From Slackia exigua ATCC 700122 (GTDB lineage: Bacteria > Actinomycetota > Coriobacteriia > Coriobacteriales > Eggerthellaceae), in contig NZ_GG700631.1 of NCBI RefSeq assembly GCF_000162875.1, forward strand, positions 48,258 through 112,257: DNA of 64,000 nucleotides, written 5' to 3'. This document shows, piece after piece, positions 1,171 to 8,701 of this stretch. The first letter of the stretch is position 1, and every line of letters starts with the position of its first letter. The notes beneath the pieces were generated by a model. The model ran no database searches. It was not told the origin of the DNA and saw only the letters and a list, made by a program, of their open reading frames with translations. A program made the translations under genes and the position numbers.

Positions 1171-4100
1171 CTATTCAGCCCTGCGCCCGCGGAAGGCGAG
1201 GCCGAGCAGGCCTAAGGAGAGCAGGCCCGCGAGGCCGGCCCCGAGCGCCATGGCGCCCGTGCCGTCGCCCGTCTTCGGCATGGCCTTCTTGCCGCCGCCG
1301 GGGGCGGGCGCCTTGGGCTTCTCGTCCTTGGTGTTGGTGACGGTGAAGCCCTTGGAGGCGTCGCCCGTGACCTTGGAGGAGTAGCCCTCCACGGCGTCCT
1401 CGGCCACGGTGTAGGCGATCCTCTTGCCGTCCTTGAACGCAGGCAGGCCGTCGAAGGAGCCCTTCCAGTTATTGCCGGCGTTGAGCTTGAGCGACTTGCC
1501 CGCGTCCTTGCCGTCGGCGAGCAGGCGCACCGTCACCTCGCCGCCCTCGCCGCCGACCCATTTCTTCTCGACCGGGACCGACACGGTCTCGGGCCCATGG
1601 GCGTTGGTCAGCGTGTAGCCCGCCTTGGCGTCGCCCGCCACGGAGGCCTCGTAGCCCTTCGGGACCGAAACCTCCTCGACGGTGTAGGCGACGTCCTTGC
1701 CGGCCTCCTTCATGAACAGGCCGGTCCAGGTGTGGGTCCAGTTATTGGCCTCGGAGAGCTCGACGGGCGCGCCCAAGGGCTTGCCGTCCGCGTAGAGCTG
1801 GGCCTTCACGCTCGCGGGGCGGATCCCGTCTTGGTTGTTCGCGTCGGCCCACGCCTTGGTCACGGTGACCGAGGTCTTGCCGGGCGTGTAGGAGTTGGTT
1901 ATGTCCGTGCCGTTCACCTCGGTGGCGTAGTTCGGGACCGCCTCCTCGGTCACCGTGTAGGCGTACTCGTGGCCGTCGGCGGCGTACTTGGGAAGGCCGG
2001 TGAACGAGTAGGCCCACGCGCCGGAGGCGTCGGGCGTCACCGTCCTGGAGTCGGCCTTCGCGCCGTCCCTCATCAGGTTCACGGTGATCGAGGCGGGGCG
2101 GACCCCGTCGCGGTCGTCGTCGTCGTCCCAGGACTTGGTCCCGGAGACGTCCACGGTCTCCTTGTTCGTGTTCGTGATGGTGAAGCCGGAGGCCGCGTCG
2201 CCGGCCACGGCGGTGCCGTACTTGGAGCTATCCACCCCCGACACCTCGGCCTCGGTCACCGTGTAGGCGATCTCGGAGCCGTCGGCGTTGTACTTGGGAA
2301 GGCCGTCGAAGGAGCCCTTCCAGCCGTTGCCCTCGTTCAGCTTGAGCTCCTTGCCCGCGACGGGATTGCCGTCGGCGAGCAGGCGCACGGTGACCTCGGA
2401 GCCCTTGGGCCCGACCCACTTCTTCTCGACCGGGACCTTCACGGTCTCCTTGTTGGTGTTCGTGATGGTGAAGCCGGAGGCCGCGTCGCCGGCCACGGCG
2501 GTGCCGTACTTGGAGCTATCGACCCCCGACACCTCGGCCTCGGTCACCGTGTAGGCGATCTCGGAGCCGTCGGCGTTGTACTTGGGAAGGCCGTCGAAGG
2601 AGCCCTTCCAGCCGTTGCCCTCGTCGAGCTTGAGCGATTTGCCGGTATCGGCGCCGTCGGCGAGCAGCCTGACCGTGACCTCGGAGCCCTTGGGCCCGAC
2701 CCAGTTCTTCTCGACCGGGACCTTCACGGTCTCGGTGTTCGTGTTGGTGATCGTGAAGCCGCTCGCGGCGTCGCCGTCGACGGAGCCGTCGTAGTTCGCC
2801 ACCGGGTCTTCCTTCACGGTGTAGACGATCTCGTCGGCCGTGCCGGCCTTGTACTTGCGCAGGTTGTCGAAGGTGCCCTTCCAGCCGTTGCCGGCGTTGA
2901 GCTTGAGCTCCTTGCCGGTGTCCGCGCCGTCGGCGAGCAGGTGCGCGGTCACCTCGGAGCCCTCGGGGCCGACCCACTTCTTGGTCACGTCGACGTCGAC
3001 CTTGACGGGCCTGTCGCAGATGGTCTTGAGCGCGCCGCCCGCAGGCGTGACCTCGAGCGTGTACTCCTCGTCGTTGAGCTCGTATCCGTCGGGAGGCGTC
3101 TTCTCCTTGACCTTGTAGGTGCCCTGCGTGAGGACGCCCGAGGTCACGGTGCCGTCGGCGCCCGTCGTGAGCTCGAAGGTGGTGCCGTCGGGCGCGGTCA
3201 CCGTGAACACGGCGTTCTTGAGCGGGATGGAGTTGTCGTCGCCGTCGACCTTGGTCAGCTTGATCTTGCTCGCCAGGTCGCCGCCGGCAGAGCCGCCGGA
3301 ATCGGAAGACTTATAGGAAGCGCTGAATTCCTTATGAACCGCTGACGAGTCGACGGTCAAGTTGTTCTTGAGGTTCGTGCCTTTATTGTATGTCGTCTTG
3401 TAAATAAGACGGTACTGCTTGCCGTTCACGTTCCCCAGATTGATGGTGAACGACCGGCCGTCGGGAGCTATCTGAAGCTTGTCCGACAGGTCGATCGTCT
3501 GAATCACCTTGGTGGTATCGCCGTATTCGTCAAACTCCACTTCGCGAAGCACGAAGCTGTCCGCGATATAACGCTCGTCCCCGTTGCCGCCGGACAGGCT
3601 GTCGGAAATCACCAGGTTGGGAAGATTGGCTTTCTTATGGTTGATACGCGCCCACCACTCTGCCTGATCGGCATGGCCGTACACGCTCTGACCCCACTTG
3701 GACACATATTCATCTTGGACCGGCTTAGGACCGACGACCTTCACGCCATCGCTGATCGTTTGGGAATGACCCGCCACATCGGAATTGACCGTGACCGTGA
3801 AGGTATTCTCCTTGTCCTTGGTCACCTTGTCCTTGTCGAACTGGGCGGCCAGGTACATCGTGCCCTTGACGTTGTACTTGTTCTCCGCCGCCTTGGTGAA
3901 GGTGACGTGAACCTTGCCGCCCGAATCATTCGGTCCGGGAGTGACATGGGCTTTCGCCACGACGTTCCCATCGTCGTCCGTCAAGTCGAAGTCCCGCGCG
4001 GTCGTATCGGACGGGAACCTCATGTTGTCCGGGAGGGTGATATCGAAGTAGTCGCCTTCGTGGATGTTCGTCCCGGCGGCGCTGGCGTCCCAGTCCATCG

Positions 4101-4290
4101 CGAGGTAGAACCTGTCGGAGATGAAGATCTCGTGCGCTTCGGTCTTGTCGAGATTCTGGATCTGGAACTTCGTGATGTTGACGTTCACGGGAACGCCCCC
4201 ATCGGCGAAGGCCGTCTGCAACGCACCTCCCGAAATGCAGATTCCGAGCGCCAGAACGACACTCAGCAGATAACAGAGCTTCTTCTTCAT
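1171..4290 (-). CDS. LPXTG-type cell-wall-anchored Cna-B repeat adhesin
   Basis: This is a surface protein likely anchored to peptidoglycan by a class of sortase and used for adhesion. The start chosen is the ATG at 4290 (MKKKLCYLLSVVLALGICI), which has AGGAAGG at good spacing; the frame stays open upstream to 4365. It begins with a signal peptide ending near TAFADGG, followed by an adhesin N-terminal region of about 300 residues. One SpaA-like domain (KLTKVDGDDNSIPLKNAVF) comes next, and then about seven Cna-B domains, each marked by KKWVGPxGSEVTV or similar and YTVxE. The C-terminus has an MPKTG sorting signal (non-canonical M for L), a hydrophobic helix and the basic tail RGRRAE. No sortase gene is in this window. 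The Cna-B region contains near-identical 288-bp DNA repeats, so copy number may vary. At about 1039 residues it is typical for such proteins. Confidence 0.9.
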   Translation of the reverse strand: MKKKLCYLLSVVLALGICISGGALQTAFADGGVPVNVNITKFQIQNLDKTEAHEIFISDRFYLAMDWDASAAGTNIHEGDYFDITLPDNMRFPSDTTARDFDLTDDDGNVVAKAHVTPGPNDSGGKVHVTFTKAAENKYNVKGTMYLAAQFDKDKVTKDKENTFTVTVNSDVAGHSQTISDGVKVVGPKPVQDEYVSKWGQSVYGHADQAEWWARINHKKANLPNLVISDSLSGGNGDERYIADSFVLREVEFDEYGDTTKVIQTIDLSDKLQIAPDGRSFTINLGNVNGKQYRLIYKTTYNKGTNLKNNLTVDSSAVHKEFSASYKSSDSGGSAGGDLASKIKLTKVDGDDNSIPLKNAVFTVTAPDGTTFELTTGADGTVTSGVLTQGTYKVKEKTPPDGYELNDEEYTLEVTPAGGALKTICDRPVKVDVDVTKKWVGPEGSEVTAHLLADGADTGKELKLNAGNGWKGTFDNLRKYKAGTADEIVYTVKEDPVANYDGSVDGDAASGFTITNTNTETVKVPVEKNWVGPKGSEVTVRLLADGADTGKSLKLDEGNGWKGSFDGLPKYNADGSEIAYTVTEAEVSGVDSSKYGTAVAGDAASGFTITNTNKETVKVPVEKKWVGPKGSEVTVRLLADGNPVAGKELKLNEGNGWKGSFDGLPKYNADGSEIAYTVTEAEVSGVDSSKYGTAVAGDAASGFTITNTNKETVDVSGTKSWDDDDDRDGVRPASITVNLMRDGAKADSRTVTPDASGAWAYSFTGLPKYAADGHEYAYTVTEEAVPNYATEVNGTDITNSYTPGKTSVTVTKAWADANNQDGIRPASVKAQLYADGKPLGAPVELSEANNWTHTWTGLFMKEAGKDVAYTVEEVSVPKGYEASVAGDAKAGYTLTNAHGPETVSVPVEKKWVGGEGGEVTVRLLADGKDAGKSLKLNAGNNWKGSFDGLPAFKDGKRIAYTVAEDAVEGYSSKVTGDASKGFTVTNTKDEKPKAPAPGGGKKAMPKTGDGTGAMALGAGLAGLLSLGLLGLAFRGRRAE
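2160..2735 (-). repeat. Near-identical tandem 288-bp Cna-B domain repeats
   Basis: The DNA around 2173-2340 recurs almost base for base at 2461-2628, an exact 288-bp (96-codon) offset. Both copies encode a block containing YNADGSEIAYTVTEAEV and SGVDSSKYGTAVAGD. The third-position identity suggests recent duplication or gene conversion rather than only protein-level conservation. Confidence 0.85.
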
Positions 4291-4485
4291 ACCCATCCCT
4301 TCCTCGAATGGTCGTACCTTGCACATGGCGCGCTTCCGCACGGCCACGGCCGTTGCCTGCAACACCCTGCCGACCGCCTTCCCTCAAGAAAGCGAATCAT
4401 CCTTCGGGCCGCGCAGGGAGGCGGCCCGAAGGATTATGCCCCGCCCGATGCGGTGAGAACGGGGCGTGATCTCCGCCGACTCGCA

Positions 4486-4764
4486 TCATGCCGGGATGAA
4501 CGCCCGCGGACCTCCCCTGCCGCGCCGTAAACGCCGCGTTGAGGAAGAGGGCCGGAACGACAAGATCCCGTCCGGCACGCCGGGGGCGACGGCGCTGCCG
4601 GAGATGGAGGGGGAGCAATATAGGAAAGGCGCGGAAGCCTCGGAGAAAAGTCGAAATATGCGTTGAAGAAGCGAAGGCCCGGGAACGAAGGCCGCACGCG
4701 GCGAATCCGAAGCGACGCACGCGAGCAGAACGATCGACGCGAACACGATGGCGAACGCCTTCAT
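4486..4764 (-). CDS. Small secreted or lipoprotein-like peptide, hypothetical
   Basis: A 92-residue product starts at the ATG at 4764, preceded by a strong GAAGGAGGGGG ribosome site. It opens with MKAFAIVFASIVLLACVAS, a signal-peptide-like helix with a possible but non-canonical lipobox (LLAC). The rest is proline-, serine- and arginine-rich and matches no family I recognise. It sits upstream of the adhesin gene on the same strand, after a gap of about 195 bases. The good ribosome site and signal sequence argue for a real gene; the low-complexity C-terminal part argues against. Confidence is moderate to low. Confidence 0.4.
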   Translation of the reverse strand: MKAFAIVFASIVLLACVASDSPRAAFVPGPSLLQRIFRLFSEASAPFLYCSPSISGSAVAPGVPDGILSFRPSSSTRRLRRGRGGPRAFIPA

Positions 4765-4791
4765 GCCCCCTCCTTCGCAGTAAAACAAGCG

Positions 4792-4833
4792 GCAGCCAGC
4801 CGCAACCCTTGAGAGAATCGCAGCTGGCTGCCA
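4792..4833. other. Inverted repeat between two divergent genes
   Basis: The arms GGCAGCCAGC (near 4792-4801) and GCTGGCTGCC (near 4824-4833) are perfectly complementary across a loop of about 22 bases. The element lies just upstream of the small secreted peptide gene and before the promoter of the diguanylate cyclase gene. It could be an operator or an RNA hairpin in the leader of the peptide gene. Confidence 0.5.
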
Positions 4834-4876
4834 TGCGAAAGGCCCTATAGCTTTGCGTCGCCGTCTTTCGACGGGT

Positions 4877-4904
4877 TTGCCATTATATTTGTGGGTACTA
4901 TACG
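4877..4904 (+). promoter_or_regulatory. Candidate sigma-70 promoter of the diguanylate cyclase gene
   Basis: TTGCCA at 4877-4882 and TATACG at 4899-4904 are separated by 16 bases, in a locally AT-rich stretch. The predicted transcript would start near 4911, about 100 bases before the chosen start codon at 5014. Confidence 0.45.
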
Positions 4905-5013
4905 CCATTGTTGAATGACGTACAATGTCCTCCGGAAAAATGCACAGAAATGCGCGCCGAAGCGGATCGGTATCGGCCGCCGTGCGCGTTCGATATCGGA
5001 ATCCGGGGAGTTC

Positions 5014-6360
5014 ATGGATCCATCACAGACCACGCAGCAGGGAAGCGATCCCATACGTATCCTTCTTGGCATCAATCGTCTCTCCGACTATGAACGCGGG
5101 TTCATTCTGGATTCGAACATGCATGTCGGCATCGCGTTCGCCGGCGTCCTCATGGCGCTCGAGGCGTTCATGTTCATCAACAGCTTTGCCCTCTCGAGCC
5201 GCCCTGGTGCGATCGAGCATATCGGCATCGCTTGGATCATGCATCATCGCCTCGGCTACGCGACGCAGTTCGTGAGCGCAGCCGTCCTTCTCGGCGTCAG
5301 CCTTCGTCATGTCCTGGTCCGGCCATGCAGCCACGCCGTCCAAACGTTCGCTCTTGCGCAATGCCTGGGAATCATGCTCGTGCTCGGCACGTACGCCGCA
5401 TGCGGCGATGTGTTCCGCGGAAACGGCCTCTATGCGCTGATTACCCAGATCGTCGCCCTCACCTGCATCTTCGTGATCCGTCCCGCGATCACCGTTCCCC
5501 TCACCCTCGTATCCATCGAGATATGCTTCATGTTCGCGAGCTACCGCGGCGCGCTTTCCCACGGCCTGATCGTGAACCTGAGCATGTTCTTCGCGTTCAT
5601 CGTGATCGCCGCGTGCGTGCGCTATCTGTTCGCCGTGCAGAACGCTCAGCGAAGCGAGGCGCTCCTACGGCAGTCCAAAACCGATTCGTTGACGCGCGTC
5701 GGCAACGTTCGCCTGCTCAGGGAGGAAACCCTCGAACTCGTAGGGAGCACGGCCACGATCACGATTCTCGATCTCAACGATTTCAAGTCATGCAACGATC
5801 GCTGCGGACACGACATAGGCGATCGCGTGCTTATACGCGTCGCAGACGGGCTCGTCCAATCGTTCGGGAATGAAGGACGCTGCTATCGCATGGGCGGCGA
5901 CGAGTTCATCGTGACGTCGACGACCCTTTCATACGCCGAGCAGAACGCCCGGCTGCTCAGCGCCCAGGAATTCGCGCGCAAAGCGATCGCGGACGAGGGC
6001 ATCTGCCCGAAGGACATGGATATCTCGTTCGCGTTCGGAACCATCACGAGGCACATCGCGACGACCCGAGATCTGCGCAAGCTCGAGCGCGACGTCGACC
6101 GCCTCATGTATGTGGCGAAGAAATCTGGGACGACCCCCCCCCCCAGGCTCTTGACGACAGGATCGAAGAGGGCCTTCCGCGTGCGTAATGCGAGATGGAT
6201 AATCTGGGCCCTGCGTTCCGCACGTCGAATCGCCTTTCCAACCGACGCGGATCGATGCGCGGTCCGCGGGATGCCGATCCGCAAGATGGACGCAGAAGAT
6301 TCTTCGGGATGGGTCCTGATAGGGCCTAGAAGGCGCGATACCGTCCGTATCGCTGCGTGA
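5014..6360 (+). CDS. Membrane-bound GGDEF diguanylate cyclase with poly-C tract
   Basis: The protein makes cyclic di-GMP from two GTP. The start at 5014 has GGGGAG before the ATG; the frame is open back to 4915, but that ATG lacks a ribosome site. About six membrane helices fill residues 25-210 (an uncharacterised sensor region). A GGDEF domain follows, with the active-site motif GGDEF at residues 294-298 (RCYRMGGDEFIV). The usual RxxD product-inhibition site five residues upstream is not seen. A run of 11 C at 6134-6144 falls directly after the AKKSG end of the GGDEF domain. As printed, the frame then reads an arginine-rich 70-residue tail that overlaps the converging accDA gene by 35 bases. 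With one more C it would read PQALDDRIEEGLPRA and stop at 6186-6188, which looks more natural. The tail may therefore reflect phase variation or a sequencing slip. Confidence 0.85.
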   Translation: MDPSQTTQQGSDPIRILLGINRLSDYERGFILDSNMHVGIAFAGVLMALEAFMFINSFALSSRPGAIEHIGIAWIMHHRLGYATQFVSAAVLLGVSLRHVLVRPCSHAVQTFALAQCLGIMLVLGTYAACGDVFRGNGLYALITQIVALTCIFVIRPAITVPLTLVSIEICFMFASYRGALSHGLIVNLSMFFAFIVIAACVRYLFAVQNAQRSEALLRQSKTDSLTRVGNVRLLREETLELVGSTATITILDLNDFKSCNDRCGHDIGDRVLIRVADGLVQSFGNEGRCYRMGGDEFIVTSTTLSYAEQNARLLSAQEFARKAIADEGICPKDMDISFAFGTITRHIATTRDLRKLERDVDRLMYVAKKSGTTPPPRLLTTGSKRAFRVRNARWIIWALRSARRIAFPTDADRCAVRGMPIRKMDAEDSSGWVLIGPRRRDTVRIAA

Positions 6361-8701
6361 CCAGCTCGTCGGCGGACAGGTTGGACAGGTCTTCGAGCGC
6401 GCGCTCCACGAACGCGGTGACGCCGCGCGCCGCATCCTTCGGATTCTCGTGCGCAGGAGCCGGCCCTTCGGACAGCACGTCGTCGGCCACGCCTAGATCG
6501 CGCGCCTCTTCGGCGCTCATGCGCATGACGGCGGCGGCTTCGGCGGCGCGCGAGCGGTCCTTCCAAAGGATGGAAGCGAACCCTTCGGGCGACAGCACCG
6601 AATACACCGCGTGTTCCTGCATTGCGACCCTGTTGCCCATGGCCAGCGCGAGCGCGCCGCCTGAACCGCCCTCCCCCACGACGACGCTGACGATCGGAAC
6701 GCGCAGCCCCGCCTGGGAAACGAGGTTGTCGGCGATGGCGTTGCCCTGGCCGCGTTCCTCGGATTCGGCCCCGCAGTACGCGCCCTGGGTATCCACCAGG
6801 CACACGACCGGACGTCCGAATTTCTCCGCCTGCTTCATCAGGCGCAGCGCTTTGCGATATCCCTCGGGTTGAGGGCATCCGAAATTGCGCGCGATGCGCT
6901 GCGTGAGGTCGGATCCCTTCTCCTGCCCGATGATGGTGACGGCGCGACCTCCTATCCATCCTATGCCTCCGACGATGGCGCCGTCGTCGCCGAACGCGCG
7001 ATCGCCATGCAGCTCCACGAAGCCGCGCACCATCGATGCGATGTAGAACAGCGAGGTCGGACGATGGATATTGCGGGCAAGCTGCACGCTTTCCCATGCC
7101 TTGCCGCCCGTATGCCCTCCTTCGACGGGTTTTACATCGGGAGCATCGGCCAAGCCCTGACGGCGCAGCGCGCGCTGCACGTCGTTCGCGCCGCCTGCGA
7201 TGCCGTCGAAGATCCCGCGGATGCGCCCCATCAGACCCGTCGATCGCCCCTGCGCATCATCGAGCGCCTCCCGTTCGCGCTGCACGGGCGTGCCGCAAAG
7301 CGCCGCCTCCACCGATTCGAACGTCGGCGCCTGACGGCTCCCATCGGCGCAGGGAGCAGCGGCAGGCTTTCCGCCGTCCGATGCGGCGTCGCACGCCCTG
7401 GGACGCGATGCATGGATCGCCAGGATATGGGCGAGGCGGCGACGCAGAGATGCACGCGGCACGATAGCGTCGATGAGCCCATGCGCAAGCGCGAATTCCG
7501 TCGTTTGGAAGCCTTCGGGCAAGTCCTTGCGAATCGTGTCCTGGATCACGCGCCTTCCTGCGAACCCGATGAGCGCATGGGGCTCGGCAAGGATGATGTC
7601 GCCTTCCATCGCGAACGATGCGGTCACGCCGCCCGTCGTCGGATCGGTGAGCACCGACACGTAGAGCAAACCGGCGCGCCCATGGCGCTCGATCGCCGCA
7701 GATACCTTCGCCATCTGCATGAGCGATGCCAGGCCTTCCTGCATGCGCGCACCGCCCGAAGCCGTGAAGATGACCGTAGGCAGACGATCGTCGGTCGCGC
7801 GCTCCACCGTGCGCGTGATCTTCTCCCCCACGACCGAGCCCATCGATCCCATCATGAACGACGGCTCCATGACGGCAAGCGCGACCGGCATGCCCGCGAG
7901 CAGCGCCTTGCCGCAACGCACGGCCTCGGACCTGCCGCTGCGCGTGCGCGCCCGTTCGAGCGTCGATTCGTATCCCGGAAAGTCGAGAGGGTTTCGCTCC
8001 TCGATGCCGTCGAACCATTCCTCGAACGTTCCTTCGTCGAAGACCTGGGCGATGCGTTCGTCGGAATCGAGACGATAGAGTCCCTGGCACGTCGGGCACA
8101 CGCCGCCCGCCTCCATGACGAGCGCACGGTCATGCGACAGCCCGCAGACCGGACAGGCGCTCCAGACGGGATCGCGATCGAGCGCGGCCGTCGGGTCGAA
8201 TTCGAAGCGAACCCAGATTTCGAGCGATTTGTCGTTCGCGAAGGGCGTAAGCGCAAGCGCGCCGGCCTTATGCATGATCGCGCGCGCGAGAGGGCTCACG
8301 CAGGCGTCGCGATGCGCGAAGAGCACCGTTTTCGCGCCGCTTTCGGCAAGCGCGGATTCGAGGCAGCATTCGTTCGAGAACAAGCGCTCGTCGAACGCTT
8401 CCCCGATGACGCACGGCTCGGCGATGCCCCCGTAGGTGAACGCCTTACGCTTGTCGGCGGTCGCCGTGGCGAAGACGGCATCGGCGCCCGCCTTCTTGCA
8501 GGCACGCGCAACGGCCTTGGCGGCATTGCCGAAACCGACGATGAGCACGCTGCCCGAGCCGGGAGCGGCAACGCTTGAAAGCCGATAGATGACCTGGGCG
8601 CGAGGTTCCCTACCCTCGACGGACACCGCGACGGCGGATGCGTCGCGCGCACCCTGGCCGTCGAGGGCTATGGTTACGTAATCAGTGCGATTCGATGCCA
8701 T
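6326..8701 (-). CDS. accDA: Fused acetyl-CoA carboxylase carboxyltransferase (AccD-AccA) with N-terminal biotin-carboxylase-like domain
   Basis: This protein transfers the carboxyl group from carboxybiotin to acetyl-CoA to give malonyl-CoA, the first committed step of fatty-acid synthesis. The 791 residues hold the beta subunit first, with zinc ribbon cysteines 183, 186, 202 and 205 and crotonase-fold motifs (FTASGGARMQEG, DPTTGGVTASFA). The alpha subunit follows from about residue 535 (RPTSLFYIASM, DTQGAYCGAESEERGQ, GEGGSGGALALA). Bacteria usually make these as two proteins. Residues about 50-147 do not belong to either subunit; VLIVGFGNAAKAVARACKK with later TADK and CVIGEA resemble the pre-ATP-grasp N-domain of biotin carboxylase. 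GAAGGAAG precedes the ATG. It is the last gene of the fatty-acid operon; accB and accC are not in the window. Confidence 0.92.
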   Translation of the reverse strand: MASNRTDYVTIALDGQGARDASAVAVSVEGREPRAQVIYRLSSVAAPGSGSVLIVGFGNAAKAVARACKKAGADAVFATATADKRKAFTYGGIAEPCVIGEAFDERLFSNECCLESALAESGAKTVLFAHRDACVSPLARAIMHKAGALALTPFANDKSLEIWVRFEFDPTAALDRDPVWSACPVCGLSHDRALVMEAGGVCPTCQGLYRLDSDERIAQVFDEGTFEEWFDGIEERNPLDFPGYESTLERARTRSGRSEAVRCGKALLAGMPVALAVMEPSFMMGSMGSVVGEKITRTVERATDDRLPTVIFTASGGARMQEGLASLMQMAKVSAAIERHGRAGLLYVSVLTDPTTGGVTASFAMEGDIILAEPHALIGFAGRRVIQDTIRKDLPEGFQTTEFALAHGLIDAIVPRASLRRRLAHILAIHASRPRACDAASDGGKPAAAPCADGSRQAPTFESVEAALCGTPVQREREALDDAQGRSTGLMGRIRGIFDGIAGGANDVQRALRRQGLADAPDVKPVEGGHTGGKAWESVQLARNIHRPTSLFYIASMVRGFVELHGDRAFGDDGAIVGGIGWIGGRAVTIIGQEKGSDLTQRIARNFGCPQPEGYRKALRLMKQAEKFGRPVVCLVDTQGAYCGAESEERGQGNAIADNLVSQAGLRVPIVSVVVGEGGSGGALALAMGNRVAMQEHAVYSVLSPEGFASILWKDRSRAAEAAAVMRMSAEEARDLGVADDVLSEGPAPAHENPKDAARGVTAFVERALEDLSNLSADELVTQRYGRYRAF

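Follow-up and report, generated by a model that had tools for sequence, protein, structure and literature searches.

The analysed window was a stretch of 64 kb (C1:48258-112257) from the genome of Slackia exigua ATCC 700122, which had a size of 2.10 Mb in two contigs and was 98.8% complete. A diguanylate cyclase gene and an adhesin gene diverged at the studied locus, and a c-di-GMP-I riboswitch was located in the region that separated them. The 3' part of the cyclase gene contained a run of 11 C and converged with the accDA gene. The features of the locus, in window coordinates, were the following:

1171-4296 (-), adhesin gene with Cna_B, Big_8, SpaA and Collagen_bind family matches and a sorting-signal-like end, downstream of the riboswitch
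4399-4434 (-), second terminator-like hairpin from the terminator scan, in the interval between the leader ORF and the adhesin gene
4486-4764 (-), small leader ORF behind the riboswitch; the paralogous leader ORF bears a 9-G tract at its start
4790-4833 (-), terminator-like hairpin of 20 pairs with a T-rich tail (the expression platform)
4816-4891 (-), c-di-GMP-I riboswitch aptamer (RF01051, full length, 59.6 bits; gathering cut-off 35 bits)
4897-4925 (-), possible promoter TTGTAC-N17-TATAGT, kept in both adhesin leaders and not called by the consensus scan
5014-6360 (+), diguanylate cyclase gene as given, probably membrane-bound; its start is preceded by ggggag, and a longer ORF opens at 4915
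5677-6132 (+), GGDEF domain with an intact GGDEF motif (PF00990, E 7.7e-20, profile positions 2-159 of 161, residues 222-373)
6134-6144 (+), 11-C homopolymer tract, a long homopolymer in a gene as at SSR phase-variable (contingency) loci
6145-6360 (+), tail of 71 codons and a stop in the frame as given, without the look of coding sequence
6152-6154 (+), stop if the tract is one C shorter, almost immediately past the tract
6186-6188 (+), stop if the tract is one C longer
6326-8701 (-), converging accDA gene (acetyl-CoA carboxylase carboxyltransferase; gene call and family match), overlapped by the given tail

Position 5014 was the best start of the cyclase. The N-terminal part of the protein was helical in the structure model and was probably its membrane part. 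The metal-binding residues D253, N261 and D262, as well as the GGDEF motif at residues 294-298, were all present in an alignment of 15 sequences. Thus, the protein had the features of the GGDEF family (PF00990), and it was predicted to synthesize c-di-GMP. A genome-wide census that covered GGDEF, EAL, PilZ and c-di-GMP-I riboswitches found this single GGDEF place and neither EAL nor PilZ. The cyclase looked like the only c-di-GMP-making enzyme of the bacterium. The original prediction, which concerned the C tract, had missed this best reason for interest in the locus: the sole GGDEF gene found was located beside a c-di-GMP riboswitch and an adhesin. No close orthologues of the cyclase were found, since a search of 138 family genomes gave four non-self matches at E <= 1e-18 with identities of 26-34%, and a contig scan of close relatives gave just two distant matches. 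Ten other GGDEF places were found in four congeners; none of the tracts listed was within 1 kb of them.

The riboswitch was the only Rfam match in the window at the gathering cut-offs. The genome search identified one other c-di-GMP-I aptamer (C2:650512-650587, 54.4 bits). Both riboswitches were followed by paralogous adhesins with Cna_B, Big_8, SpaA and Collagen_bind domains, and the two leaders could be aligned from a common promoter-like box to the adhesin start. A promoter consensus scan over 4300-6700 gave no promoter-like site. In both leaders the aptamer overlapped the terminator. At the studied locus the terminator hairpin had 18 nt in common with the 3' end of the aptamer, so that ligand binding should block termination, and the two structures were mutually exclusive, as in an RF01051 expression platform. 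The predicted fold that included the terminator had an energy of -49.2 kcal/mol versus -19.3 kcal/mol for the fold with the 3' part held open, both computed without ligand and tertiary contacts. This anatomy pointed to an ON switch, in which c-di-GMP would promote adhesin expression.

The leader ORF and the second hairpin separated the riboswitch from the adhesin start, and the aligned leader of the paralogue had the same layout, which suggested a second control step. A coding test of the leader ORF gave 11, 4 and 16 differences by codon position over 34 codons, which was a weak signal. No c-di-GMP-I riboswitch was found in 11 congeners. However, this absence was not firm because the best 150 candidates were scored in seven of the 11, and the 14 control genomes were without a match as well.

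The run of 11 C corresponded to codons 374-377 of the cyclase, numbered from 5014. It was the longest homopolymer of the whole window, and the genome contained one further run of 11 C. Since the tract opened at 6134 and the PF00990 match stopped at 6132, the catalytic domain was retained in all three frame states, and a change of the tract length touched only the tail behind the domain. The presence of the run in the assembly confirmed the original prediction, and so did the frame as given, which was said to add an Arg-rich tail overlapping accDA: the tail had 71 codons, its Arg content was 21%, and the frame opened at 5014 reached its stop at 6358-6360, overlapping the end of accDA (6326, minus strand) by 35 bases. 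Frame reading also agreed that one extra C leads to the stop at 6186-6188, and both alternative frames gave ordinary short ends. The description of that short end as natural-looking held up against 28 relatives with a terminal GGDEF domain, 23 of which likewise had at most 25 residues past the domain (median 8, range 0-56).

The predicted RNA fold of 6100-6400 was unremarkable (z -1.47). No plus-strand terminator was found 3' of the cyclase, and all four terminator-like sites in 4300-6700 (shuffle mean 1.8) were on the minus strand. The window contained four CCCCCCCC words compared to a shuffle mean of 1.82, with at least four in 15 of 100 shuffles. Window C runs of length 6, 7 and 11 occurred three times, once and once, respectively; therefore, the tail of the run-length distribution was heavy only relative to the actual run lengths.

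The coding character of the tail was evaluated with a codon score trained on 140 genes (58,618 codons) that a crude gene finder called in the retrieved portions of this genome, with the cyclase excluded. The 372 codons of the cyclase body scored 109.8, as expected of an ordinary gene, whereas the 13 codons that lead to the stop at 6186 scored 1.28, too little to decide between the two short ends. The first 70 codons of the tail scored -10.85, and none of 769 true-gene windows was as low (mean 23.5). Over the first 60 codons the score was -6.91, a level reached by 0.7% of 900 true windows (mean 20.1) versus 50% of 1723 stop-free wrong-frame windows. Similarly, Arg averaged 5.6% in 753 true windows, and 0.13% of them reached the 21% of the tail. 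The mean Arg content was 23.9% in same-strand wrong-frame windows (n=444), 70% of which reached the value of the tail, and 12.9% in opposite-strand ones (n=838), 11% of which did so. Moreover, confidence in the structure model (mean pLDDT 74.7 with 15 aligned sequences) was 89-98 in the domain blocks, 63 in the tract block and 28-43 behind the tract. This drop was weak evidence, since all 14 other aligned sequences had been trimmed at the domain and none extended into the tail.

Given the codon score, the Arg content and the short ends in relatives, the frame as given was probably unnatural. The 71-residue Arg-rich tail was very probably out of frame rather than a natural extension, and the native C-terminus was probably one of the two short ends, with the stop at either 6152 or 6186. 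This out-of-frame look would fit a tract that has shifted and a tract that was miscounted equally well. As an interpretation, the original prediction was partly supported, with the switch in activity or location that it proposed still a hypothesis.

The genome had ten runs of at least nine C, each of them on the forward contig strand. According to a first-order chain built from the window, about 13.4 C/G runs of at least nine were expected (10 seen), 3.4 of at least ten (6 seen) and 0.8 of at least 11 (2 seen). Thus, the number of tracts itself was not beyond chance on that model, and tract density was rejected as evidence in its own right. The remarkable feature of the tract is its place, not its number. 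Namely, two of the ten tracts belonged to the c-di-GMP circuit: the 11 C in the cyclase and a 9-G tract, on the coding strand, in the second leader (C2:650452-650460; L072 5452-5460). The latter began with the G of the start codon (ATG) of the leader ORF that follows the second riboswitch. As given, this tract was in frame with a region resembling the paralogous leader ORF. A fusion of the second adhesin to the leader ORF through this tract was considered and rejected, since there was a stop in the adhesin frame just behind the tract.

All chance estimates for these places came from tests framed post hoc. The probability of two of ten tracts inside the roughly 2.5 kb of the circuit was 6.6e-5 under a uniform distribution. 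With tracts confined to an assumed 12% of non-coding DNA, the probability of at least one tract in the two leaders was 4.6%. Two of the ten tracts were located within 600 nt upstream of seven Cna_B ORFs, a manual grouping of 30 matches (1.8e-4 if uniform, 1.2% if confined to the 12% non-coding DNA).

A C10-T-C8 tract (L065 5226-5244) was located about 60-70 nt upstream of a gene for a VWA sortase-type protein, and a C9 tract (L077 5937-5945) was 51-81 nt upstream of another Cna_B protein gene; both were candidate promoter-type phase-variable sites. Of the remaining tracts of at least nine, one was 93 nt upstream of a gene for a DUF4190/DUF5067 membrane protein, one was in frame within a YobI-ATPase gene, one was about 274 nt upstream of a T4SS coupling-protein-like gene, and three had no clear target.

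Tract words in this genome showed a strand bias (34 forward versus 6 reverse). Nine of the ten tracts were in stretches of negative GC skew (dnaA was at C2:1216808, and skew was the sole basis for placing contig 1), so the bias looked like a leading/lagging effect and was rejected as a feature of the locus. Words of at least nine C were strand-biased in some of the twelve genomes of the genus (18:0 in S. exigua, 10:0 in G005). Tracts of 9-10 C were also observed in congeners (L118 11462-11471; L135 4059-4068 and 4471-4479; L119 4127-4135; L141 4032-4040; L144 4076-4085). Labelled by eye, their settings were the neighbourhood of a LicD-like gene, positions within and next to overlapping ORFs in a phage-tail-like region, and positions in or before large surface-like proteins. 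Such tracts may be in wide use across the genus.

Slippage at the 11-C tract was plausible from the sequence. Our leading explanation, held tentatively and somewhat short of probable, was that the tract is prone to slippage and, from the end of the sole diguanylate cyclase in a small private c-di-GMP circuit, tunes this enzyme via its tail. Two phases of the tract would end the cyclase shortly past the GGDEF domain, as in most relatives, and the third, that of the assembly, would append 71 out-of-frame Arg-rich residues. Because none of the three states cuts into the domain, an effect on the level of stability or activity was more likely than an on/off effect. The tail would then tune the amount or the activity of the cyclase, e.g., through instability, and would not act as a clean switch. 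A change in the cyclase would shift c-di-GMP and subsequently both adhesins behind the ON-type c-di-GMP-I riboswitches. We considered it unlikely, although conceivable, that this minimal circuit is diversified by slippage both at its source (11 C) and at one target (9 G, leader ORF), with single cells gambling on adhesion. In the long-tail phase of such a circuit the cyclase, whose end ...RIAA resembles an ssrA-like degron, might be degraded.

Neutral drift and a miscounted run were serious rivals to the slippage switch. Two further points spoke against our explanation: past the catalytic domain, where the tract lies, a frameshift costs little and may be neutral, and the congeners showed no listed tract close to their GGDEF places. 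A homopolymer might simply be tolerated past the last domain residue, drifting in length and altering an expendable tail to no effect. The GGDEF match ended directly before the tract, tail lengths in relatives covered a wide range, and the tract number was close to the first-order expectation, all of which was consistent with such drift. However, there were tracts at places where drift alone need not have put them, namely one in the leader of the paralogous adhesin under c-di-GMP control and others ahead of two more genes for sortase-type surface proteins; on balance, we regarded neutrality as rather unlikely. It was also possible, but improbable in our view, that the length was miscalled: the real tract would then have another, fixed length, the cyclase would stop short, and the long tail would exist in the assembly only. 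A homopolymer run of 11 bases is hard for any sequencing method, and the given tail was the sole unnatural-looking end of the three. Moreover, copies of the rRNA region in this assembly differed by many small indels, including single-base and several homopolymeric ones (e.g., GGGGGG versus GGGGGGG), which were likely assembly errors and made the count of 11 uncertain. On the other hand, these differences were confined to the contig ends and a tangled repeat (C1:1-5000, C2:569000-576000 and C2:1428000-1431083), whereas the gene calls of the window, inspected by eye, included no split gene, so the unique regions looked cleaner. A functional role of the Arg-rich tail as an alternative C-terminus, for example in membrane or nucleic-acid binding, was highly improbable. 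The frame did stay open for 71 codons and was basic, but its codon score and Arg content matched those of out-of-frame sequence, it ran into accDA, and model confidence in it was low (in an alignment without other rows there). Accordingly, a functional long tail was rejected.

Several known systems resembled parts of this locus. In Bacillus thuringiensis, the Bc2 c-di-GMP-I riboswitch precedes the gene for the Cap collagen adhesion protein, and its ligand turns transcription on (PMC4933901). The c-di-GMP-I aptamer, the terminator/anti-terminator platform and the wall-anchored collagen adhesion gene were common to that system and the Slackia locus, the latter as judged from its sequence. Unlike Bc2/Cap, Slackia had two paralogous leaders, one of them divergently beside the sole GGDEF gene found, and its C/G tracts occupied the cyclase gene and the second leader. 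CD2831 of Clostridioides difficile (PMC6447587) was another close system in a different organism. The c-di-GMP phosphodiesterases pdcB and pdcC of C. difficile are phase-varied by DNA inversion (PMC9286219). The likeness was that random switching of a c-di-GMP enzyme alters several processes; however, the invertible promoter is located upstream of the phosphodiesterases, whereas any switching in Slackia would come from slippage of a homopolymer in the 3' end of the cyclase gene.

Homopolymeric-tract phase variation is described for inlA of Listeria (PMC2831843), where a hypermutable homopolymer likewise shifts the reading frame. Those poly(A)/poly(T) tracts are near the 5' ends and truncate the product, whereas the poly(C) of Slackia lay past the last domain and would lengthen it. 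During laboratory evolution of Pseudomonas aeruginosa, indels in homopolymeric tracts and changes in c-di-GMP enzymes were reported, and the authors speculated on their joint action (PMC8115180). In contrast to the one cyclase with an intragenic tract in Slackia, the selected indels there were intergenic and the c-di-GMP network was highly redundant. A paper on phase variation in Eggerthellaceae dealt with prophage recombinases and retroelements (PMC8778435). Excerpts of the open-licence literature on phase variation, homopolymers, c-di-GMP and riboswitches in Slackia, Eggerthella and Eggerthellaceae contained nothing on this system, and among the matches listed from the open-licence phase-variation literature, likewise in excerpt, there was no diguanylate cyclase with a comparable tract.

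Should the tract prove variable in cells, random changes of its length would, from one site, reset the level of a second messenger with apparently one source and two adhesin targets that sense it through RNA. In that case, a very small system would join phase variation, c-di-GMP signalling and riboswitch control. Even without slippage, one GGDEF gene and two c-di-GMP-I riboswitches found in the genome, both on adhesins, make this bacterium a clean model of a minimal c-di-GMP circuit.
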